A DNA stretch of 64,000 nt. It comes from Chitinophaga sp. GTDB taxonomy: Bacteria; Bacteroidota; Bacteroidia; Chitinophagales; Chitinophagaceae. Both the position numbers and the translations under genes were made by a program. Positions 33,959 through 45,026 of the stretch are shown in pieces; positions within the stretch are counted from its first letter, which is position 1, and the number at the start of each line of letters is the position of its first letter. The stretch is taken from contig NZ_JAGHZS010000010.1 in the NCBI RefSeq assembly GCF_017745275.1, forward strand, positions 248,001 through 312,000, in the 5' to 3' direction. The notes under the pieces were generated by a model, which saw only the letters and a program-made list of their open reading frames with translations, ran no database searches and had not been told where the DNA came from.

Positions 33959-34654
33959 CTATCCTGCAGATAATAGCAGTTTATAACCAATGCCTCTCAG
34001 GTTCATGATACTGATATTTTTCTCAGCAGAAAGTCGTTTCCTGATTTGTGTGAGATGAACATCCATGCTACGTGAAGTATAATAGTCATCATTGCCCCAG
34101 ATCTTCTGCAGCAGTACACTGCGTTCCACAATCTGGTTAACATTCAGTACCAGGATCTCCAGCAGGATGGTTTCCTTGTAAGAGAGGATGAACCTGTTGG
34201 TGGAAGTGATCAGTGTTTGATGTGTGGTATCCAGCGTACAGGCTCCGAAATGATAGATCTCCCTTTTGGAGGTAACCTCATTGTTGTTGAATCTCGTCAG
34301 CAGGGCATCAATCCTGATTAAAAGCTCATCGATGCTGAAGGGCTTTCTGAGATAATCATTTCCTCCATGCCTGAACCCTTTCACAATATCTTCCGTTTGT
34401 ACTTTGGCACTAAGGAAGATAATAGGGATTTCTTTCGTCAGGCCTCTTACCTGTCCCGCCAGGTCATATCCATTAATTCCTGGCAGCATTACATCCAGTA
34501 AGCAAAGATCAGGCTGCCAGGCGGTAAATTGCTCAAAAAAGACCGCGCCACTGTCTATATGCAATACGTCATAACCGCCTGTTTTTAATCCGTCGCAGAC
34601 AATTTTAGCCAGAAATGGTTCGTCTTCTGCATACATTATTTTATATTTCCTCAT
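33959..34654 (-). CDS. OmpR-family response regulator
   Basis: 231 residues: a receiver domain with acidic pocket EDE near residue 16, phospho-acceptor Asp in LCLLDVMLPG and the conserved Lys in FLSAK, then a winged-helix DNA-binding domain ending in RGIGYKLL. Overlaps the kinase gene upstream by 14 bp, so the two are co-translated. Likely binds the TTAAC repeats in front of the divergent receptor gene at 36.3 kb (inference from position and repeat architecture). Confidence 0.95.
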   Translation of the reverse strand: MRKYKIMYAEDEPFLAKIVCDGLKTGGYDVLHIDSGAVFFEQFTAWQPDLCLLDVMLPGINGYDLAGQVRGLTKEIPIIFLSAKVQTEDIVKGFRHGGNDYLRKPFSIDELLIRIDALLTRFNNNEVTSKREIYHFGACTLDTTHQTLITSTNRFILSYKETILLEILVLNVNQIVERSVLLQKIWGNDDYYTSRSMDVHLTQIRKRLSAEKNISIMNLRGIGYKLLLSAG

Positions 34655-36086
34655 ACAGCGGGAATTGAATGATAAATGTGCTTCCGTATCCTTTATTGCT
34701 TTGTACCTTAATAGTAGCCCCGTGTTGTTGTAATATCTCCTTCACATAATGTAAGCCCAGGCCGCTTCCCTTGGTGTTATGGACGTCGAAGTCAGGTATC
34801 CGGAAGAATCGTTCAAATATTTTTTTATGGTAGATGGGGGCAATACCAATTCCATTATCTTTTACAGATATCACCACGCGGCTATCTTTTGTTTTGCAGG
34901 TGATATGGATCTGCGGCGCCTCTTCGGTATATTTAAGTGCATTATCCAGTACATTTACGAATACATTCCCCAGGTGTATGCGGTCGCCCATTACTATGAT
35001 GGGTTGCTGACAGGGGTCGAAATGAATAGTCGCCTTTTTTTTCTGGCGTAAGAGCGCTAAAGAATTGATCACATGCTGTATCAACAGTGGCAGATCAACA
35101 GGCTCAATGTGAAGTGTAAGTGCAGTTCCCTCCTCCGGCTTTAGGTTTAATATTTTTTCTATCATGAAGTTAAGCCGTTCTAACTCCATCTGGCTCATAT
35201 GTATATACTCATAGAGCTGTTCCGGGTTATTTTCCATTTTATATTTAACAATAGACTCCAGTGCAACGGATATCGTGGCAACGGGTGTTTTAAATTCATG
35301 GGTCATATTACTGATAAAACCGAGTCGTTCCTGTGAAAATAGCTGCTGCAGGCGGATGAAGCGAAGCAGGAAGTAAAATGCAAAGGAAATGATAAGCGTT
35401 GTAATGAGATTGGAAAGCAGGAAATACCTGAGCAGATACCAGACCGGCATGCTGAGAGAAGGGATGAAGAGCCGGTATTTGGCGAAATGATGTAAGTTGT
35501 ATGAATAACTATTGCTCCGGAAATCAGCGTTTTTAACCGGATTGTTTTGCGGGTAGCCAGGTAGCAATGTATCCTTTCCATAACTGTATAAAGCATAGGT
35601 GGAAGAGGAAATGTTAGCCGTAGCGCTCAGCTTTTCCCGTATCAGGGAATCCATGAAATGGAGTGACTCCACATCCTGTGGGCTCTGGAACGCCTGCTCC
35701 TGGAAGTTTTCCCGTTTATTGGATGCCGGCTCCTGGTGCGACTTCAACTTGAACCGGAGACTGAATTCTATGGAGTCGGGAGTAATATCGTAGTCGAAAC
35801 TACTTCTTAGGCCTCCGATTTTACTATTATCAAAGGCATTTCTAAGCTGCCCCCATTGCGGCGAAAGTAGGAATTGCCGAAAGCTTTCGTTGGCAATATT
35901 ACTGCCTCCCAGCGATTGATATATAGATATTAATGACGCCTCGTTTACAATGTTCTCCAGTTGTTGTTTCAATTGTTTTTTCTGGGAATGAAAAGTAGTG
36001 TGAATCCATAGAGCCTGGAACGTACAGCATAATAGCATACAAATCGCTACGAAATGATAAATGTACTTTGGTTGATAAAGGCGCAT
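34641..36086 (-). CDS. Sensor histidine kinase with periplasmic loop
   Basis: 481 residues: membrane segments near residues 10-28 and 215-240 flank a periplasmic sensor domain of ~185 residues; then the dimerisation helix with phospho-acceptor His in MTHEFKTP, and an ATPase domain with N box, DNGIGI and GSGLGLHYV motifs. The periplasmic domain resembles no ligand-binder I recognise. Arrangement kinase-regulator next to a divergent TonB-type receptor is common in Bacteroidota and resembles RprX/RprY style systems. Confidence 0.94.
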   Translation of the reverse strand: MRLYQPKYIYHFVAICMLLCCTFQALWIHTTFHSQKKQLKQQLENIVNEASLISIYQSLGGSNIANESFRQFLLSPQWGQLRNAFDNSKIGGLRSSFDYDITPDSIEFSLRFKLKSHQEPASNKRENFQEQAFQSPQDVESLHFMDSLIREKLSATANISSSTYALYSYGKDTLLPGYPQNNPVKNADFRSNSYSYNLHHFAKYRLFIPSLSMPVWYLLRYFLLSNLITTLIISFAFYFLLRFIRLQQLFSQERLGFISNMTHEFKTPVATISVALESIVKYKMENNPEQLYEYIHMSQMELERLNFMIEKILNLKPEEGTALTLHIEPVDLPLLIQHVINSLALLRQKKKATIHFDPCQQPIIVMGDRIHLGNVFVNVLDNALKYTEEAPQIHITCKTKDSRVVISVKDNGIGIAPIYHKKIFERFFRIPDFDVHNTKGSGLGLHYVKEILQQHGATIKVQSNKGYGSTFIIQFPLYEEI

Positions 36087-36295: not shown

Positions 36296-38695
36296 ATGCT
36301 GAAAGCCCTTGCTATCCTATTCTCCCTGGTGTACCCTTTTATGCTTTGTGCGCAGCACAATGTGAAAGGAAGGGTGTTATGTGGGGAACAGCCGTTATCC
36401 TTAGCCAGCATCAGCGTTCGAGACAGTGTTCAGATAATAGCTACCCGGTTATCTGAGCAGGATGGCACTTTTTTGTTATCGCTTCCTGCAGGAAAGTACC
36501 AGTTGGAAGTCAGCCTGATTGGATATAAAATATACACTACCAGTGTAACGATACCGGCTCCCGCCGACTTACTGGTTGTAATGGAGCAAGAGAGCCGCCA
36601 GCTTTCTGCAGTTAGCATTTCAGGATCAAAGCCACTAATAGAGCGGAAACTGGACCGTATTATATTTAATGTTCCCAATAGTATCATGGCCAGCGGAGGA
36701 TCTGCCTGGGAGGCCCTGGCAAAGGCGCCGGGGGTAAGAACTACCACCGGCGGGAATGTTACTGCTATGGGCAAAGGAGCCGTGATTTATATAAATAACA
36801 GGATACTACGCTTATCCGGGGAAGACCTGGTCTCCTTCCTGCAGGGGCAAAATGCCGATAATATACAGCGAATAGAAGTGATTGTAAATCCTCCTGCATC
36901 TTACGACGCACAGGGGGGAGCGGTGATTAATATTGTCACAAAGAAAATATTGGCGGGTGGTCTCAATGCAGTGATTTCAGGCGGTATTACACAATCGGCC
37001 CTTACAGGAGGGCGCCTGGGAAGTAATTTCAACTACCGGAAAGGGAAGTGGAATGTGTATGGAGGCCTGGCTGGAAACATCAGCAGGAAAGATTACCGGG
37101 AGGATAATTACATTGTTTTTGGATTGCCGGACAGCTATTCATATTGGAAAGGAGTGAAAGAGGGGCAGCGACGCGGAGAAACGGTGGCCTATAAACTGGG
37201 AGCTGATTTCGCTGTGAATAGCCGCCATGTAGTAGGCTTTATGCTCGATGGAGCCACCGGCAACAGGGAGCGGCCGATAAACATACGAACGGATGTTTAT
37301 CAACCCGATATTAAGGGGATAGATTCATTGCTCACCACACACAATACTACCGGCAGTACCATCAACCAGCAGTCTGTTAACTTTAACTACAGCGGATCGC
37401 TGGATACCGGCGGAACGAAAACAATTAATGTGGACGTTGATATTTCCCCTTTTCGCAACCGGAAAAACCAGGATATAGATTTTGCCTCCTATAAACCGGA
37501 AAGCAGCAGGCCTGTGTACAGGGAGGTTAACAATACCCGGTCACTACAGGATATCAGCATTTTATCCGGCCGCATAGATTATTCGCAGCAGTGGAATAAA
37601 GACTGGCGTTTTGAAACAGGCATTAAGTATAACCGGACATTTAACAAAAGTGATCTTCGTTTTTATAACCTGGACAACAACATCCCCCACTATGATACCC
37701 TGAAAAGCAGTGAGTTTCACTATACCGAGAAAAACCTCGCGTTATATGTGAATATGCAGGGTGCTATTGGTAAGCTATCTGTAGAAACCGGCCTTAGAGG
37801 AGAGTATACGTGGACAACCGGTTACCTGGTCACAAAAGACCTGTTGAATGAACGTAATTATTTCAAGCTATTTCCTACTGTTTTTATTACCTATGCCATC
37901 AATGATAAGCATGAGGTGAATGCATACTACGGCAGGCGGATAAACCGGCCGGATTACTGGCGGTTAAATCCATTCAGGTATTACACCAGCCCATATACCT
38001 ACCTGGAAGGGAATCCATACCTGAGGCCGGCGTTTGTTAACGAAATAGAATTAGGATATTCCTTCAAAAAACATATCAGCATTACGCTTTTTTATAACGA
38101 TACAAGAGACTATTTCAGTAATATATCTATACAGGACAATACCCAACATATTTTTTATGATACACAGCGGAATCTCAACCAAAGTCTTGAAACCGGCATG
38201 CATGCCACCATTCCTTATACCCCTTTCAGCTGGTGGGAAATAAATGCTTTTTTACAAGCTTCTTATAAAAAGGAAAAATCAGGTTTCCTGGATAGTAAAT
38301 ATAACTACAGCACCTGGTTTGCCTATGTAAATCTCACGCAGGCATTTACAATTTCCCGGAAGGCGGGCTGGAAGGGAGAAATTACTACCTGGTATGCATC
38401 GCCTGGTATACAGGGAATTTACCGGATAGCCGCTAACTATGATGTTAGCTTTGGTGTACGAAAAATGTTATGGGGCGGAAAAGGAAGTGTTCAGCTTTCA
38501 GTAGCTGATATTTTCTATAGTAATTTTTCCAGGATTGACGTTGATTACGAAAACCAACGGAACGGATTCAGGGAGAAAACAGATACGCGCGCTGTAACAC
38601 TTAACTTTAATTATAAAATAGGAAATAAAAAGATTGCCGCTACACGTAGCAGAAAAACATCCAATGAGGACGAAAAAAAACGCGCCACCAATTAA
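36296..38695 (+). CDS. TonB-dependent receptor-like outer membrane beta-barrel protein
   Basis: 799 residues: signal peptide ending near CAQ (residue ~20), a carboxypeptidase-regulatory-like beta-sandwich (residues ~25-95), a plug with KAPGVRTTTGG and the IYINNR motif, then a large beta-barrel of the OMP_b-brl type. Such proteins sit in the outer membrane; substrate is unknown. There is no SusD partner. It is divergent from the two-component pair and carries putative regulator sites upstream, so it is probably its main target. Confidence 0.9.
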   Translation: MLKALAILFSLVYPFMLCAQHNVKGRVLCGEQPLSLASISVRDSVQIIATRLSEQDGTFLLSLPAGKYQLEVSLIGYKIYTTSVTIPAPADLLVVMEQESRQLSAVSISGSKPLIERKLDRIIFNVPNSIMASGGSAWEALAKAPGVRTTTGGNVTAMGKGAVIYINNRILRLSGEDLVSFLQGQNADNIQRIEVIVNPPASYDAQGGAVINIVTKKILAGGLNAVISGGITQSALTGGRLGSNFNYRKGKWNVYGGLAGNISRKDYREDNYIVFGLPDSYSYWKGVKEGQRRGETVAYKLGADFAVNSRHVVGFMLDGATGNRERPINIRTDVYQPDIKGIDSLLTTHNTTGSTINQQSVNFNYSGSLDTGGTKTINVDVDISPFRNRKNQDIDFASYKPESSRPVYREVNNTRSLQDISILSGRIDYSQQWNKDWRFETGIKYNRTFNKSDLRFYNLDNNIPHYDTLKSSEFHYTEKNLALYVNMQGAIGKLSVETGLRGEYTWTTGYLVTKDLLNERNYFKLFPTVFITYAINDKHEVNAYYGRRINRPDYWRLNPFRYYTSPYTYLEGNPYLRPAFVNEIELGYSFKKHISITLFYNDTRDYFSNISIQDNTQHIFYDTQRNLNQSLETGMHATIPYTPFSWWEINAFLQASYKKEKSGFLDSKYNYSTWFAYVNLTQAFTISRKAGWKGEITTWYASPGIQGIYRIAANYDVSFGVRKMLWGGKGSVQLSVADIFYSNFSRIDVDYENQRNGFREKTDTRAVTLNFNYKIGNKKIAATRSRKTSNEDEKKRATN

Positions 38696-38786: not shown

Positions 38787-39431
38787 ATGCACTGTATTAT
38801 TATTGCGAAGAATGGCGCGTCTTATGCCGGTATTTTTACTGAATATCTTATGGAGAAAGGGTTGGCCCGTGTTACAGTAACTTCTCCCGCCGTTGGGGAG
38901 GTGAGAAGAGAATTGACGAAAATGGTTTACCATTATGCATTAATAGACCTGGAAGATGATGGAATAGACGGTTTGGAGGTAGCCAGGATCATCAAGAAGA
39001 CCTCTCCCCGTACGCATTGCCTGATCCGGATTCAGCCGGACGACTTCAAGCTTGATTTTCTCATTCATTTTGATATCAGCGGATATCTTTCTCCCAATTG
39101 TTCGCTGAAAGAACTGATGCAATGTTTTGAACTGCTGAATGAAGGTTACCGCTTTATGAGCGGGGATATTCGTGAAAAATTATCACGGATAGAAAGTGTC
39201 AGCGCAAAAGATTTTTCTGATAACAGCCTCACGAAACAGGAGAACAGAATACTTAACCTGGTAATGAAAGGTAAGAGTACCGGTGAAATTGCCAGGGAGC
39301 TTTTTTTAAGCATTAATACCATTAATAATCACAAAACACGGATCAGGAATAAATTGAATCTTCAAAGTAACCGTCAGTTAGTAGCTTATGTGATGCAGTG
39401 GAGAAATCGTGTTCATCAAAATGCTTGTTAG
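38787..39431 (+). CDS. LuxR-family response regulator-like protein
   Basis: 214 residues: an N-terminal receiver-like domain with Asp in ALIDLEDDGIDG but without a clear N-terminal acidic pair, and a C-terminal LuxR helix-turn-helix (LTKQENRILNLVMKGKSTGEIA...). No kinase gene adjoins. It stands 132 bp before the RiPP precursor in the same direction, so it is the likely pathway regulator. Its stop codon lies inside an 18-bp palindrome. Receiver degeneracy suggests phosphorylation may not be the input signal. Confidence 0.88.
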   Translation: MHCIIIAKNGASYAGIFTEYLMEKGLARVTVTSPAVGEVRRELTKMVYHYALIDLEDDGIDGLEVARIIKKTSPRTHCLIRIQPDDFKLDFLIHFDISGYLSPNCSLKELMQCFELLNEGYRFMSGDIREKLSRIESVSAKDFSDNSLTKQENRILNLVMKGKSTGEIARELFLSINTINNHKTRIRNKLNLQSNRQLVAYVMQWRNRVHQNAC

Positions 39432-39445
39432 CAGAATTCTGCTAA
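39428..39445. promoter_or_regulatory. Perfect 18-bp palindrome between regulator and RiPP precursor
   Basis: TTAGCAGAA and TTCTGCTAA abut as exact reverse complements and include the regulator stop codon. No T-run follows. An operator for the LuxR-like protein is plausible; a weak terminator is the alternative. Confidence 0.45.
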
Positions 39446-39475
39446 GAGAGGCTTCAGTTAGATCATTTACTGCTA

Positions 39476-39507
39476 TTGACTTGTAGCATGTGTTCGTCTA
39501 AATTGTG
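39476..39507 (+). promoter_or_regulatory. Candidate promoter of the RiPP precursor
   Basis: TTG at 39476-39478, 20-nt spacer, then TAAATTGTG at 39499-39507, an imperfect match to TAnnTTTG. It would start transcription ~50 nt before the precursor ATG. Confidence 0.35.
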
Positions 39508-39563
39508 AGAACATTTCTGAGGCCTCAAATTGCATTTTTTCAACTAATTAAATCCTACAAAAA

Positions 39564-39752
39564 ATGGAAAAGAAAATTAAATTCAACGCAAATCAGGCGC
39601 AACTGATCGCCAAATCTATCGATGCTTTCAAAAACGAAACAGTTAAGAAAGTAGCTAAATCTTATTTCGGAGGTAATGTTCCTTCTCACTCTAAAGGAAC
39701 TTATTCTCAGAGCTATAGCAGAAGCGCTGTTGAAGAACCAGCTTCTATTTAA
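39564..39752 (+). CDS. RiPP precursor peptide, cyclophane type
   Basis: 62 residues. The leader (1-37) is Lys-rich and helical in character and ends in Gly36-Gly37, the cleavage site expected for the C39 peptidase encoded downstream. The 25-residue core starts at Asn38 and holds Tyr47-Ser48-Gln49 and Tyr51-Ser52-Arg53, two aromatic-x-x units of the kind that radical SAM cyclophane synthases crosslink, then an acidic tail EEPASI. No Cys is present, which excludes lanthionine and sactipeptide chemistry. Placement directly before a radical SAM/SPASM gene and behind its own terminator-like hairpin is typical. The exact crosslinks are inference. Confidence 0.85.
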   Translation: MEKKIKFNANQAQLIAKSIDAFKNETVKKVAKSYFGGNVPSHSKGTYSQSYSRSAVEEPASI

Positions 39753-39770
39753 TAATAGCCTGATTACAAT

Positions 39771-39802
39771 AAAAGCCCGTAAGGAATTTTCCTGGGGCTT
39801 TT
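39771..39802 (+). terminator. Attenuator-like terminator after the RiPP precursor
   Basis: AAAAGCCC (39771-39778) pairs with GGGCTTTT (39795-39802), with an inner AGGAA/TTCCT helix, followed by ATTTCTT. A hairpin here allows more precursor than enzyme mRNA, with partial read-through into the maturase genes. Confidence 0.7.
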
Positions 39803-39843
39803 ATTTCTTATCCCTCTAATAACCTCATATTGAATTTAACCTT

Positions 39844-41103
39844 ATGACAATGCTGAAATGTAATACGCTCGTACTGAAAGTAGCCAGCAGATGTAATCTT
39901 AACTGCACCTACTGCTATATGTATAACATGGGTGACAGTACCTACAGGAATCAACCAAAAGTGATGAGTGATAAAGTGGTGGAGTCACTGCTGGAGAGAG
40001 TAAGGAATCATTGTCAGCAATACGGGGTAGCGTCATTTAATTTCGCTTTTCATGGAGGGGAACCATTGTTGGCAGGGAAAGAATTCTTTATCCGGTTTAT
40101 CAGTAAAGCAAATGCCATGTTAGCCGGTGTGGCAACAATTACCTACCTGGTGCAAACGAATGGTACATTACTGACCCGTGAATGGTGTGAGTTTTTCGAC
40201 ACCTGGGGCGTTCAGATAGGTGTGAGCCTGGATGGAACTCCCGAAGCCAATGATCAATATAGAATTGATCATGCAGGCAGAGGGTCCTATCGTCAAATTA
40301 TTGCAGGACTGAAATTGGCGCAGCAATACACCGTCAAAAACAGTCAGCCAGGCGTTTTATCCGTTGTTAATATAGATGCAGATCCCCTCGATATTTATAC
40401 GCATTTTAAAGAAATTGGTGTGAACAATATCAGTTTTCTTTTACCGGATTCTAATTTTGATAAACTACCGCCCGCTCCGGCTGCTGGAAGCCCTTTTTCA
40501 GGTGATACGCCTTATGCCGACTGGATGATCCGGCTTTTCGATGCCTGGTTTTTTGATGATAAAAGCCGGTTGACCATTCAATATTTCCGGAAAATTATAC
40601 ATGTCATTTTAGGAAGGGAAGTAGTGTCTGAATTGGTGGGTACGGCTAATAATGAAGTATTGGTGATAGAAACAGATGGCAGTATAGAACCGCTGGATGT
40701 ATTGAAAATCTGTGGAGAAGGATTTACGAAAAACAATGCCAACGTTTTGTCCCATGAATTAACGGAGGCCCTGAATACGCCCCTGGCAAACCTGTATCAG
40801 TTAAGTCATACGAAGATCTGCGCAAAGTGTGCTGCCTGCCCTGTAAGTGAAATCTGTGGAGGCGGATACCTGCCACATCGCTACAGTTCTGCCAATGGTT
40901 TTAATAATCCTTCAGTTTATTGCAATGATTTGCTGAAGTTGATCATACATATTCAGAACAGGGTGATCAGCCAGTTGCCCCAGGACTTGCTGGAGGAAGC
41001 CGGTGTAACAATGCTCACCTATGAGGAGGCATTGCAAATACTGGAAGAAGCAGCAACCGGCGGTGAAGGATCCCGGTTTGCTGAAGAACTGGAAGCATAT
41101 TGA
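39844..41103 (+). CDS. Radical SAM/SPASM peptide maturase, FxsB-like (cyclophane-forming)
   Basis: 419 residues. Cys17, Cys21 and Cys24 form the CxxxCxxC site for the radical SAM cluster. A HGGEPLL motif follows near residue 70. The C-terminal SPASM region has CAKCAACPVSEICGGG and, further on, PHRYSSANGFNNPSVYC, the signature of FxsB/GrrM-type maturases that join an aromatic ring to the beta-carbon of the residue two positions on. It is the core enzyme of the cluster and should act on the 62-residue precursor in the cytosol. The actinobacterial FxsB proteins are often fused to an HExxH domain; here that domain is the next, separate gene. Confidence 0.92.
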   Translation: MTMLKCNTLVLKVASRCNLNCTYCYMYNMGDSTYRNQPKVMSDKVVESLLERVRNHCQQYGVASFNFAFHGGEPLLAGKEFFIRFISKANAMLAGVATITYLVQTNGTLLTREWCEFFDTWGVQIGVSLDGTPEANDQYRIDHAGRGSYRQIIAGLKLAQQYTVKNSQPGVLSVVNIDADPLDIYTHFKEIGVNNISFLLPDSNFDKLPPAPAAGSPFSGDTPYADWMIRLFDAWFFDDKSRLTIQYFRKIIHVILGREVVSELVGTANNEVLVIETDGSIEPLDVLKICGEGFTKNNANVLSHELTEALNTPLANLYQLSHTKICAKCAACPVSEICGGGYLPHRYSSANGFNNPSVYCNDLLKLIIHIQNRVISQLPQDLLEEAGVTMLTYEEALQILEEAATGGEGSRFAEELEAY

Positions 41104-41133
41104 CCTGCTATTAATGATATAAAATTTACTGAT

Positions 41134-42264
41134 ATGGTCGGCACATATAATGATAGCGGAATATATACCGTATTAACTCCTTTTCAATTTAATAAAGGTG
41201 ATAACCTGCCGTTTTATAAGAATGTGTTATCCATTTTTACTACTATTTTAAAGAGGAATTTTGAGGCGTTGATGGCGGGTGCAAATTTATATCGCGCCGA
41301 TGATACGAGGCAGTTGGCCAGTCAGCTGAATGACCCCAACCTGGTGGAATACCTGCTGCAACCGGAAGTATCTCACCGGTTGTTATTTGACCATGAGCAA
41401 CTGGCCGGCGCAGATGATTTCTTTCTGCTTACTTTATCGGCCCACCTGGCAAAGAAAACGGGTAAGTATGATAGCGCCCTGGGTAGCCGTATCTGGTCTG
41501 CCAACGGTGATTTTCTCATCTCTTCTGAAGAGGATACCGGAAACTACGAAACATATGAAGCGCCCCGCGTAGCCGGGCGTGTACCGATAGATTTTTTTAG
41601 CCCCTGCTGCCTGGGATTGTCTGCTGAAGAAATTCAGGAAGGACAGCATACATTATTTGACCTGTATAGCATAGAAGAAGCAGAGCAAATCTTTACCCAC
41701 CTGGAAGATGCGGTGTTGCCGTTGGCAGATAACAGCAATTTTCATGAGTTGATTTGCCTGTTCAATAATGTACTCATGGTAAAAAAGCAGCAGAACCCTA
41801 ACGGAAAAAAACCATTCATATCGGGTTCAGATGGCTACTATATTGGCAGAACGCACGTGATGAATCCGGATGTAGTGAGTGCAGAACCTATTGCGGAAAT
41901 GTTTGTTCATGAAGCTATTCATTCCGTATTGTATATGCTGGAAGAACATGGACCCTGGATGCCTGGTGTTGCAGATGCTCATCGTATAGGTATAAGCGTG
42001 CCTTCCAACTGGTCAGGTAACCGTTTGAGTATCCGGAGCTACTTTCAGGCCGTGTTTGTATGGTTTGGGATCTGGAATCTCTGGCGGTATGCCCGGGAAA
42101 ATAACCTGTATAACCAGGAATGGATAAAGAAAAGATTACAGTTTGTAACCAACGGTTTTGCTACACTGAACCTGGATGATATCCGGAAAAAGTATGACAT
42201 CCGTTTGCCGGATGAAACAGTGGATGCGGTACTGGCCGCAAAGAAAATTGTATTGGAAGGGTAG
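41134..42264 (+). CDS. HExxH-motif protein, probable 2-oxoglutarate-dependent peptide beta-hydroxylase
   Basis: 376 residues. The only recognisable motif is His259-Glu-Ala-Ile-His263 in FVHEAIHSVL. The rest matches the HExxH family that accompanies or is fused to FxsB-type maturases. Members of this family have been reported as iron/2-oxoglutarate peptide beta-hydroxylases rather than proteases; I rely on memory for that. It starts 30 bp after the maturase. Predicted role: hydroxylate a beta-carbon in the core peptide, possibly one also involved in a crosslink. A metallopeptidase that trims the leader is the alternative. Confidence 0.75.
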   Translation: MVGTYNDSGIYTVLTPFQFNKGDNLPFYKNVLSIFTTILKRNFEALMAGANLYRADDTRQLASQLNDPNLVEYLLQPEVSHRLLFDHEQLAGADDFFLLTLSAHLAKKTGKYDSALGSRIWSANGDFLISSEEDTGNYETYEAPRVAGRVPIDFFSPCCLGLSAEEIQEGQHTLFDLYSIEEAEQIFTHLEDAVLPLADNSNFHELICLFNNVLMVKKQQNPNGKKPFISGSDGYYIGRTHVMNPDVVSAEPIAEMFVHEAIHSVLYMLEEHGPWMPGVADAHRIGISVPSNWSGNRLSIRSYFQAVFVWFGIWNLWRYARENNLYNQEWIKKRLQFVTNGFATLNLDDIRKKYDIRLPDETVDAVLAAKKIVLEG

Positions 42265-42285
42265 TAACTATTAAACAAACGTACT

Positions 42286-44499
42286 TTGTGGTTCGATAAA
42301 TTTCATTTTATACAACAGCATGATCATGCCGATTGCGGACCTGCTTGTCTGGCGATGGTTTGCCATTTTTATGGCCGCCCGGTAAGCCTGCAACAAATTA
42401 AAGGAACTACCGCATTAACGAGGCAGGGGATGTCGTTGGAAAGTTTATCCAACAAGTCAGTTGAATTGGGCTTCAGATCACTGAGTGTACAAACCACCTT
42501 CTCTAAGCTGGCTTCCAATGCGCCGTTGCCAGCTATTGTACATTGGGAAGAGAATCACTTTGTAGTGATCTACAGGATTACTGCAACGCATGTTTTTATT
42601 GCGGATCCCGGAAAAGGAAAATTAAAACTCTCCCATGCCAGGTTTATGGATGGCTGGATATCCAGGGAAGAAGAAGATAATACGGGCGTAGTGTTGCTGC
42701 TGGAGCCTGCCGCGGAGTTCTTTCATGCAGATGCAAAGCTGGAAGCTAAGGCTGGCACCGTACTGCCATTTATTACTGGTTACCTGAAAAGCTACCGGCT
42801 CAATATACTGCAAATCTTATTCGGGTTGTTCCTGGGAAGTTTGATCCAGCTACTGGTGCCCTTCCTGACACAATCTATCGTGGATAAAGGGATTGGTTAT
42901 TCAGACAGCGCTTTTATATACGCCATCCTGGCGATCCAGTTGGTATTGTATCTGAGCGCTACAGGGATTGAGTTTATGCGAACCTGGGTGTTCATGCATC
43001 TGAGCACCAGGATCAATGTATTGATTATATCCGATTTCCTGGCGAAGTTAATGCGGCTGCCGGTGGGCTTTTTCGACTCAAAGATCATTGGAGATCTTAC
43101 CCAGCGTATTAACGATCATAAGCGTATTGAACAATTTATCACGGATACATTGGTCAAGAGCCTGTTCTCTATTTTCACCCTGCTGGTATTTGCCGGTATC
43201 CTGCTTTATTTCAGCCTGCCCGTTTTTTTCATTTTCGTTAGCGGAACCATACTTCAACTTTCGTGGATTTTTTTCTTTCTCGGGAAACTGAAATTGTTGG
43301 ACTATGAATCTTTTGCATTACTGGCAAAAGATAATAGCAAAGTCCTGGAAATCATTACTGGTATGCAGGAGATAAAGTTCAACAACCTGGAAGAAGAGAA
43401 GAAGAATGAATGGCAGGAAATACAATCTTCTCTTTTCGGTGTGAGCCTCGCAAAGCTGAGGACTAACCAGGTAGAACAAGGAGGAACGCGTTTCATTGGC
43501 TATCTGCAGATCATCCTCATTGTATTTTTCTCGGCGCTGGCAGCTTTGCACCATGAAATGACGCTGGGTACCATGATGTCTGTGTTATTTATTACAGGCC
43601 AGCTAAATGCGCCTGTTACACAACTGATCAATTTTATCCTGTCGGCCCAGATGGCAAGGATTAGTATGAGCCGTCTGGCAGAGGTACATCAGCATGGGGA
43701 AGAGGAAGTGGCCGGCGCGTATAAACTGGAGACACTACCGGAAGCACATTCTCTTGAATTAACGGACGTGCGTTTCAGTTATACAGAAGGAGTAGAGGTG
43801 CTCCGGGGCATCAATGTTCATATACCCGAAAATAGGATTACGGCAATTGTTGGGTTGAGTGGCAGTGGAAAAACCACTTTAATCAGGTTATTGCTGAAAT
43901 ATTACACGCATTTTTCGGGACAGATTAAGGTAGGCGATGTTCCGTTGCAGGATGTACGGAATGCTTGCTGGAGAAGCCAGTGCGGAGCTGTGTTACAGGA
44001 TAGTTTTATATTCTCGGATTCCATTGCCTATAATATTACACTTCAGCGGGAACCCGACCCGGAGCGACTTTTAAACGCAGCGGTAGCGGCCAATATTTAC
44101 GAATTTATTATGTCATTGCCGCTTCAATATAATACGAGGATAGGACAGGAAGGATTTGGCATCAGTCATGGCCAAAAGCAAAGGATACTAATTGCCAGGG
44201 CAATTTACAAGAATCCCCGGCTGATATTTTTTGACGAAGCAACCAATTCATTAGATGCCAAAAATGAATTTATTATCATGCAAAATCTGCAGCATTTTTT
44301 CAAAGGACGTACCGTGGTGATTGTAGCTCACCGTTTAAGTACGGTCAGAAATGCTGACCAGATCATTGTACTGGAGCAGGGGAAAATTGTAGAATCAGGT
44401 ACGCACTACGAGTTAATGGCATCAGAAGGCAGTTATTATTCGCTGGTGAAAAACCAGGTAGAACTGGGGGCCAGGGATGTTTTACAAACAGAAATATGA
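42286..44499 (+). CDS. Peptidase-containing ABC exporter (C39 peptidase-permease-ATPase)
   Basis: 737 residues: C39 cysteine peptidase (residues ~5-135) with Cys17 in ADCGPACLAM, His in ENHFVV and Asp in FIADPGKG; permease ~165-430; ATPase with Walker A GLSGSGKTT, signature ISHGQKQR (usual form LSGGQ) and Walker B LIFFDEATNSLD. It cuts the leader after the double glycine and exports the core. The start is a TTG at 42286: a stop lies upstream and the first in-frame ATG comes after the catalytic cysteine, so a later start would destroy the peptidase. Overlaps the next gene by 4 bp. Confidence 0.95.
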   Translation: MWFDKFHFIQQHDHADCGPACLAMVCHFYGRPVSLQQIKGTTALTRQGMSLESLSNKSVELGFRSLSVQTTFSKLASNAPLPAIVHWEENHFVVIYRITATHVFIADPGKGKLKLSHARFMDGWISREEEDNTGVVLLLEPAAEFFHADAKLEAKAGTVLPFITGYLKSYRLNILQILFGLFLGSLIQLLVPFLTQSIVDKGIGYSDSAFIYAILAIQLVLYLSATGIEFMRTWVFMHLSTRINVLIISDFLAKLMRLPVGFFDSKIIGDLTQRINDHKRIEQFITDTLVKSLFSIFTLLVFAGILLYFSLPVFFIFVSGTILQLSWIFFFLGKLKLLDYESFALLAKDNSKVLEIITGMQEIKFNNLEEEKKNEWQEIQSSLFGVSLAKLRTNQVEQGGTRFIGYLQIILIVFFSALAALHHEMTLGTMMSVLFITGQLNAPVTQLINFILSAQMARISMSRLAEVHQHGEEEVAGAYKLETLPEAHSLELTDVRFSYTEGVEVLRGINVHIPENRITAIVGLSGSGKTTLIRLLLKYYTHFSGQIKVGDVPLQDVRNACWRSQCGAVLQDSFIFSDSIAYNITLQREPDPERLLNAAVAANIYEFIMSLPLQYNTRIGQEGFGISHGQKQRILIARAIYKNPRLIFFDEATNSLDAKNEFIIMQNLQHFFKGRTVVIVAHRLSTVRNADQIIVLEQGKIVESGTHYELMASEGSYYSLVKNQVELGARDVLQTEI

Positions 44500-45026
44500 A
44501 AAGTACCGTTATTCATACTAATTATCCTCCGCAAAGTGCGGAAGCATCAGTCACAAATCTGTCGAAGGCAACAACAACGGGCTTTTCGAAGCCATTCCCC
44601 GGTTGGATTAATCGCTGGACTATTTTATTACTGGGTGCTTTTTTCCTGTTGCCATTAACATTGCTGCTACTGGTTAGGCAACCGGTGTATACAAAGATCC
44701 CCTTCTCTGTAGCAGGTAGTATTGGAAAATCAGGTATCACATTGACGGTAAGCAGTGTCATAGCAGCACACAACATCGCCGGCGACCGGGTTATTTTGTT
44801 AACAGATGCCAATGGCTACCAGTCTGCGGCACGGTATGCAGGCTATCTTTCGGCAATAGAGCCATTGAACATAAAGGAATGCCGGCTCCGCATCATGCCC
44901 GTGGATGGAAAGATGGAGGAAGTGTTGGCTAATGGCCCACATATGATCACAGGGCAGGCTATATTAAAATCTACCTATGTATCTATTTTAGGGAAGATAT
45001 TTTATCGCGAATCACAGGCTCAATGA
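44496..45026 (+). CDS. Short HlyD-like membrane protein (mini adaptor)
   Basis: 176 residues: ~40 cytosolic residues, one membrane segment near 42-61, then a beta-rich region whose last part (near ITGQAILKSTYVSILGKIF) resembles the C-terminal end of HlyD-family adaptors that accompany C39 exporters. The alpha-helical hairpin and most of the lipoyl region of a normal ~400-residue HlyD are missing, and the reading frame shows no sign of a frameshift. Overlap with the exporter gene implies that it works with it, perhaps as a minimal periplasmic guide. Last gene of the RiPP operon. Confidence 0.7.
   Translation: MKSTVIHTNYPPQSAEASVTNLSKATTTGFSKPFPGWINRWTILLLGAFFLLPLTLLLLVRQPVYTKIPFSVAGSIGKSGITLTVSSVIAAHNIAGDRVILLTDANGYQSAARYAGYLSAIEPLNIKECRLRIMPVDGKMEEVLANGPHMITGQAILKSTYVSILGKIFYRESQAQ

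Follow-up and report, generated by a model that had tools for sequence, protein, structure and literature searches.

The window analysed here, a 64,000-nucleotide stretch of a Chitinophaga sp. contig from a genome of 7.94 Mb, encodes what is fairly likely to be a seven-gene system for a ribosomally synthesized and post-translationally modified peptide (RiPP), in which ring formation and hydroxylation of a short precursor would be followed by export through a C39 peptidase-containing ATP-binding cassette (ABC) transporter, with an outer-membrane beta-barrel protein provided for the outer-membrane step (Table 1). An earlier note on this DNA, made from the sequence alone, had described a compact system of six open reading frames (ORFs) at 38787..45026. 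All six were found at these coordinates and on the forward strand, but the description was incomplete, having left out a PF14905 barrel gene as the seventh member, and the gene unit probably begins further upstream, at this barrel.

In the proposed pathway, the regulator would switch on the precursor, whose leader (residues 1-37) would guide a ChlB-type radical S-adenosylmethionine (SAM) enzyme. Judging from its family, this maturase would join an aromatic or His side chain to the third residue of the triads HSK, YSQ, and YSR, giving up to three cyclophane rings, and an iron- and alpha-ketoglutarate (aKG)-dependent HExxH oxygenase, so assigned from its predicted fold, would then hydroxylate one or more core residues. 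The C39 exporter, like others of its family, would cut after GG and move the 25-residue product to the periplasm. The adaptor appears to be without a long periplasmic part, and the PF14905 barrel would most likely serve the outer-membrane step, as exit or as receptor. The biosynthetic part is most likely a variant of the ChlB/SjiH kind, with a known type of chemistry, and the export arrangement the unusual part.

Gene content and conservation

Relatives of the regulator, precursor, maturase, HExxH protein, and exporter are present in other genomes, several of them in the same order, which marks the six ORFs as genes and not chance reading frames. Other loci are designated here by L-numbers and genomes by G-numbers, G000 being the genome of the window. 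Four Flavobacteriales loci (L026, L029, L030, and L031; three Flavobacterium and one Chryseobacterium) share the order barrel, precursor, radical SAM enzyme, HExxH protein, C39 exporter, and a 41-amino acid (aa) stump, without the regulator. A relative of the regulator was identified in the Chitinophaga metagenome-assembled genome (MAG) locus L025 (36% identity over 195 aa); the receiver domain of the window protein, at 19.3 bits, stays below its cut-off of 30.2.

Table 1. Features of the RiPP locus in the window (TM, transmembrane)
Feature	Position	Strand	Basis
Outer-membrane beta-barrel protein, 799 aa, CarboxypepD_reg + PF14905 (TonB-receptor-like)	36296..38695	+	PF14905 344.6 bits
LuxR-type regulator, 214 aa, atypical receiver	38787..39431	+	GerE 60.8 bits
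RiPP precursor, 62 aa; leader 39564-39674 ending ..YFGG; predicted core 39675-39749 NVPSHSKGTYSQSYSRSAVEEPASI	39564..39752	+	
RNA hairpin separating the precursor gene from the maturase gene	39768..39805	+	Folding compared with shuffles
Radical SAM/SPASM maturase, 419 aa, ChlB/FxsB/YhhB type	39844..41103	+	NCBIfam, PDB match, cysteines
aKG-HExxH-type peptide oxygenase (predicted hydroxylase), 376 aa, H259 E260 H263 + E270	41134..42264	+	TIGR04267, AlphaFold, Foldseek
C39 peptidase-containing ABC exporter, 737 aa, TTG start	42286..44499	+	Pfam domains
Short adaptor-like membrane protein, 176 aa, one TM helix (36-60)	44496..45026	+	Position, weak HlyD score

Export and the outer-membrane step

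The exporter contains Peptidase_C39 (116 bits), ABC_membrane (102 bits), and ABC_tran (90 bits) domains, in agreement with its earlier assignment, and groups with the exporters of L026, L085, and L025 (98% SH-aLRT). A link between short adaptors and barrels was tested on loci that had not been used to form the idea. Exporters similar to that of the window (E <= 1e-100) were drawn from 167 genomes of the family and 178 of the phylum and gave 82 nearly full-length, hand-picked places beyond the window, 76 of which were used together with some 6 kb to either side (10 of these stretches being shorter), two having already been included in L054 and four lying near contig starts. Adaptors were called with a hidden Markov model (HMM) built from 51 full-length adaptors, and barrels with one built from 21 barrels, a barrel being counted if it scored over 250 bits, measured 500-900 aa, and lay on the same strand at a distance of up to 6 kb.

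Nine of the 20 loci with a short (133-202 aa) or no adaptor carried a barrel, compared with none of the 56 loci with a full adaptor (356-482 aa, mostly 424-465; Fisher p 1.2e-6). The difference was retained with either strand counted (10/20 vs. 1/56, p 1.8e-6), after removal of one duplicate and of the 10 stretches cut short by contig ends or by the fetched range (7/17 vs. 0/48, p 2.8e-5), and with the further exclusion of L092 and L100, which were counted as short adaptors and may be broken full-length genes (7/15 vs. 0/48, p 1.2e-5). PF14905 was present in all 12 barrels checked, which came from 10 loci. The same pattern is seen within single genomes: five of the nine tabulated (G006, G067, G145, G557, and G598) contain both kinds of adaptor and a barrel with the short-adaptor locus only, and the genome of the window encodes two further exporters with full adaptors (L089 and L115) and no barrel.

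The barrel of the window also contains a CarboxypepD_reg domain (37.1 bits), with no match to the plug domain PF07715 at E <= 0.01. A barrel lies 5' of the precursor in the four Flavobacteriales loci, and related systems of Chitinophagaceae (L014-L018, L053, and L054) have barrels too. A search of 13 genomes with the window barrel gave 8-12 matches in each of the four Flavobacteriales genomes, and the top one was in every case the barrel next to the HExxH RiPP locus; these loci look orthologous, so this result is close to a single observation. In a tree comprising 37 barrels, of which 12 are linked to RiPP loci, the linkage label requires four changes, against a mean of 10.4 after shuffling, near-copies included. 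Three presumed paralogues grouped with the linked barrels, one of these joins carrying a long-branch warning. Two of the three turned out to lie in further loci with a GG-type peptide, a C39 exporter, and a short adaptor, namely L085 (barrel, 60-aa precursor, radical SAM enzyme, C39 exporter, and 40-aa stump) and L087 (51-aa GG peptide, C39 exporter, and 239-aa adaptor), while the third, L086, did not. A single clade for all linked barrels was not supported, given the four changes, the open backbone, and the long-branch warning, and a C-terminal DEKxR tail was dropped as a mark of linked barrels, as other barrels end alike.

Several observations weigh against a dedicated role of the barrel in export. 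No counted barrel accompanies 11 of the 20 short- or no-adaptor loci; in G006 and in G145 a second short-adaptor locus has none, and G543, G553, and G065 have both kinds of adaptor and a counted barrel at neither. No such barrel was present in the fetched DNA of L025 (21 kb), the closest Chitinophaga relative, of L013 and L019 (19 kb each), or of L045, and in seven Chitinophagaceae genomes (G071, G253, G330, G354, G408, G411, and G461) the best match to the window barrel lies elsewhere than the RiPP-linked one. The backbone of the barrel tree is open, and the union of L014/L015 with L070 carries a long-branch warning. When 85 exporters (the 76 and nine discovery loci) were placed on a tree, 15 of the 16 short-adaptor loci with a barrel fell in one half and the survey barrels required four changes, and a test on independent pairs was not significant (median p 0.5, six starred pairs), with barrels going the same way in 1.6 pairs on average and never the opposite way. 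The association is largely that of one inherited lineage, L125 being the clearest independent case, and the presence of the barrel may track modified peptides rather than the loss of the adaptor. The window barrel may also belong to the adjoining two-component pair.

The main alternative, which is given somewhat less than an even chance, is that the barrel is not the exit: it would be a receptor for the uptake of a peptide or metal complex, an immunity factor, or a neighbour controlled by the two-component pair at 33959-36086, and the peptide would leave by way of a TolC whose gene lies outside the locus. Proteins of the PF14905 family resemble TonB receptors and are common, the window barrel having 14 matches in G000; the L086 barrel groups with the linked ones yet is not beside a RiPP locus; L025 and L013 combine short adaptors with no barrel in the fetched DNA; and the barrel-free survey loci point the same way, as does the abundance of TolC-family genes in the genome of the window (56 PF02321 matches). 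The survey association, which recurs within five genomes, would be unexpected under a pure receptor role, and a short adaptor could hardly span the distance to TolC. TolC genes were found beside only three of the 76 survey exporters, all with full adaptors, by an HMM built from just four seeds, one an incomplete ORF. Since TolC is so scarce beside exporters and plentiful in the genome, its absence from the locus is uninformative, and a “TolC-less” label for the locus was dropped. Export through the barrel is plausible, though the specific claim that the barrel is the exit path does not reach an even chance.

The 176-aa protein, which the earlier note had called a mini adaptor, is adaptor-like in its position behind the exporter and is tentatively best read as a shortened HlyD stump. 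It has no family match in Pfam or NCBIfam, phmmer against PDB sequences gave nothing useful, and BLASTP against the 181-aa adaptor of L013 returned no match. With an HMM of the HlyD N-terminus it scores 11.9 bits, where 200 shuffles reach 9.6 at most. With the same N-terminal model, L013 (58 bits), L014 (45), and L085 (17.5) score higher and L031 (11.3), L025 (10.4), L030 (8.8), L026 (8.5), and L029 (1.5) lower, the best shuffles reaching 4.5-9.6, and this closeness to shuffled sequences makes the HlyD origin of the window protein a weak suggestion. With the whole HlyD model, L013-L015 and L087 are clear matches (60-145 bits). The structural model of the 176-aa protein is of low confidence (predicted local distance difference test score, pLDDT, 48.6), with only the helix region confident. 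About 115 aa follow the TM helix, and beyond residue 60, where the model is of low confidence, no helix of at least four residues and no helical hairpin is predicted, so that the protein does not have the full periplasmic part of HlyD. Proteins behind the exporter in related systems measure 244, 240, 239, 181, 176 (window), 139, 41, and 40 aa, and no adaptor follows the exporter in L016-L018, L053, and L054.

It is rather unlikely, though a serious alternative, that the 176-aa protein is an unrelated membrane protein, such as an immunity protein, with no HlyD remnant. The lack of a family match, the empty comparison with the L013 adaptor, and a margin of merely 2.3 bits over the best shuffle would fit this, whereas its place behind a C39 exporter, the same as that of the clear short HlyD proteins of L013 and L014, and its single N-terminal TM helix, as in HlyD, argue for a shortened adaptor.

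A broader proposal is advanced only tentatively, namely that Bacteroidota possess a second RiPP route combining a C39 exporter, a cut-down HlyD (about 200 to 40 residues, or none), and a dedicated PF14905 barrel instead of TolC, with the window as one case, shared with other radical SAM, graspetide-like, and lanthipeptide-like loci. PF14905 barrels or fragments were also noticed near diverse peptide loci (L095, L103, L109, L110, L124, L129, L154, L155, L156, and L158), whose neighbours include, by eye, multi-copy Cys-rich GG peptides and ATP-grasp-like and LanC-like proteins, which indicates that barrels of this kind are not confined to cyclophane systems. In two of these, L155 and L156, both without a counted barrel, a barrel fragment or tail lies at the fetched edge (the L156 tail by eye); these were found later and left uncounted.

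By eye, a divergent histidine kinase and response regulator adjoin the barrel gene at 33959-36086; they may regulate it or be unrelated.

Precursor and maturation enzymes

The precursor has no Pfam match and a single NCBIfam match at E 0.08, far under the cut-off of that model. Cleavage after Gly37 would give a 25-residue product, the size expected in the earlier note. A 57-aa peptide adjoining the maturase in L025 shares 53% identity with it over 45 residues (core ..AYSQGYYQQFYSRV), and L026, L029, L030, and L031 each encode a peptide of 52-56 aa just 5' of the maturase (core ..VPSFSRSTWERS..). The precursor can be aligned with those of L026, L029, L031, and L013; the core of L013 reads ..VNVNPWAKSTFSKD and that of Taibaiella ..FSRSAFSRSSPDKI. 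A GG-type precursor is therefore conserved next to related maturases, a point on which the earlier note had made its reading depend.

The window core holds three triads in which an aromatic residue or His is followed by Ser and then by Lys, Gln, or Arg (HSK, YSQ, and YSR). Where one or two Tyr-centred rings had been proposed earlier, up to three rings may therefore form, and not around Tyr only. Each of six cores tested contains at least one [FYWH]S[RKQ] triad, and as many triads as in the real core arose in 0 of 20,000 shuffles of the window core and in 30 for L045, 129 for L025, 933 for L013, 1,105 for L029, and 2,232 for L026, the motif having been defined after the window core was seen and a single triad in a short core being not rare by chance. 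Such triads were also seen by eye 5' of the maturases in L028, L034, L036, L040, L041, L042, and L044.

The maturase gave its top NCBIfam scores, over most of its length, with YhhB (NF041707, 355.5 bits) and FxsB (TIGR04269, 350.9 bits), its three best-scoring families are all cyclophane families, and its best PDB match is the radical SAM domain of ChlB (9gm3, E 3.4e-70, residues 9-379), which bears out the earlier view of a cyclophane-synthase-type enzyme. Both scores fall under the curated cut-offs (445 for YhhB and 370 for FxsB), which counts against a firm assignment, so that the protein is termed related to, not a member of, these families. Cysteines of the radical SAM CxxxCxxC motif (C17, C21, and C24) and of the SPASM domain (C290, C329, C332, C338, and C360) are invariant in seven aligned maturases, its own included, and 6 of 79 genomes from the genus, again counting its own, encode a relative (E <= 1e-40). 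It is improbable that the maturase makes another bond, such as an ether or a product of sulfatase-type oxidation: the sulfatase maturase model TIGR03942 does score 192 bits and the cyclophane cut-offs are not reached, but the leading family scores, the ChlB match, and the recurrence of aromatic-x-x triads in the cores all favour cyclophane formation.

The HExxH protein scores 37.1 bits with TIGR04267, under the cut-off of 40, a further point against confident family membership; its relatives in L025 and L026 score 33 and 29 bits. An AlphaFold model, computed from an alignment of proteins from 22 of 28 HExxH loci (pLDDT 88.1; predicted template modelling score 0.89), matched five PDB chains at E <= 0.001 in Foldseek, four of 8s5f (ChlB-HExxH, 7.4e-10) and one of 22ob (SjiH-Ni, 2.6e-8), the next match having an E-value of 0.44. 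This predicted-fold match supports the protein as a candidate peptide hydroxylase, as the earlier note had suggested; phmmer against PDB sequences gave nothing useful. H259, E260, and H263 are present in all 23 aligned sequences, its own included, and position 270 is Glu in 18 and Asp in five, a pattern that would fit a 2-His-1-carboxylate iron site with position 270 as the presumed ligand. HExxH with a later Glu is a peptidase pattern too. A zincin metallopeptidase trimming the peptide or destroying intruders is nevertheless very improbable, even though PflC is described as proteolytic when the leader is absent (PMC12636437; papers cited by PMC number are drawn on in excerpt), as the only structures matching the model at E <= 0.001 are the two aKG-HExxH oxygenases. 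Enzymes of the aKG-HExxH family act as hydroxylases on His, Asp, Phe, Gln, and Pro, and one of them cuts the peptide backbone (PMC13060819, PMC12636437).

As a single query, the HExxH protein retrieved no relative from viral and genome contig collections, and relatives were found only with a profile built from four HExxH proteins, which gave the 28 loci from 159 pattern matches in a species-genome collection. By record title these span Bacteroidota, Proteobacteria, Cyanobacteria, Actinobacteria, and others. A maturase relative lies in the fetched DNA of 20 of the 28 (BLASTP with the window maturase, E 1e-3), and an exporter matching that of the window over its length in six. Relatives are rare among the genomes sampled, being found in 2 of 394 family genomes (its own included) and 1 of 395 phylum genomes (its own), and TIGR04267 has a match in 1 of 345 genomes, again its own.

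Other gene combinations were noticed around these enzymes. In L016 (10721-14232), L017, L018, L053, and L054, from related Chitinophagaceae, one maturase is followed by three or four tandem proteins of 277-295 aa with, by eye, an HxD-like motif, which may replace the HExxH oxygenase; one of them, scanned from L016, had no Pfam or NCBIfam match. L013, L014, and L015 have, in place of maturase and HExxH protein, two tandem related maturases and then one protein of 274-287 aa that looks of the same kind and, scanned from L013, likewise had no match in Pfam or NCBIfam. In L023 (4481-8744, Rhizobium ruizarguesonis plasmid p4), amid conjugation genes, a 632-aa protein with many MHDQTHSEGGG-type repeats, resembling a multi-core precursor, directly precedes radical SAM and HExxH genes. 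L024 (6033-11335, a conjugative Rhizobium etli plasmid) encodes consecutively a small ORF, a radical SAM enzyme, an HExxH-containing hypothetical protein, two further proteins (one JmjC), and a GNAT protein. L019/L045 (Taibaiella soli) has precursor, radical SAM enzyme, and HExxH protein only, with no exporter in the fetched DNA and, by eye, mobile-element-like genes alongside.

Relation to known systems and surrounding genes

The closest known system is ChlB/ChlB-HExxH, a fused radical SAM-aKG-HExxH protein (Morishita et al., 2024, as cited in PMC12636437; PDB 9gm3, 8s5f). As there, a ChlB-like maturase and a ChlB-HExxH-like oxygenase presumably act on one precursor, but in the window they are separate genes accompanied by a C39 exporter, a short adaptor, and a barrel, the comparison having been drawn without the Chl precursor. 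SjiH (PDB 22ob) shares the oxygenase fold (TM-score 0.65/0.60) at 14% identity; no paper on this name was found among openly licensed PMC papers. PflC/PosC, BpmH, and PesO are likewise stand-alone aKG-HExxH enzymes in RiPP clusters (PMC12636437, PMC12257519, PMC13060819), but those clusters carry MNIO enzymes, unlike the window, and no ChlB-type radical SAM enzyme is named in the excerpts.

Colicin V type export consists of a C39 ABC transporter, a membrane fusion protein, and TolC (PMC10352776). The GG-cutting C39 exporter is common to both arrangements, whereas the window has a 176-aa adaptor, compared with 356-482 aa for full ones, and a PF14905 barrel alongside. Oar, a TonB-dependent outer-membrane barrel, is required for secretion of PopC (PMC6434023), and thus provides a case of such a barrel used for export, with a protease as cargo instead of a peptide and no C39 exporter featuring in the excerpt. 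A graspetide survey counted 31 occurrences of a PF14905/SusC cluster in the vicinity of ATP-grasp genes and predicted that TonB-receptor-related proteins mediate graspetide export (PMC8939145); the barrel is shared with the window, but in the excerpt it is tied neither to adaptor length nor to cyclophane systems. Among openly licensed PMC papers, none was found that deals with this cyclophane system or with the link between adaptor and barrel.

The locus offers a small, testable Bacteroidota pathway that may combine cyclophane formation and hydroxylation by separate enzymes on a precursor outside the Pfam and NCBIfam models. It also raises the general question of how RiPPs of Gram-negative bacteria cross the outer membrane where the exporter has no gene for a full-length adaptor next to it, with the PF14905 barrel as a candidate. 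If this proved true, the export of many natural products would fall to TonB-type barrels, in the way that Oar serves a single protease.

Between the precursor and maturase genes, the hairpin region (39750-39835) folds with a minimum free energy of -19.5 kcal/mol (z -2.63; 1 of 200 shuffles equally good). The hairpin at 39768-39805 was not among the hits of a simple terminator scan and is possibly an attenuator lowering the expression of downstream genes relative to the precursor. Upstream of the RiPP genes, at 14-32860 of the window, large non-ribosomal peptide synthetase genes and thioesterase- and phosphopantetheinyl-transferase-like genes were recognized by eye.

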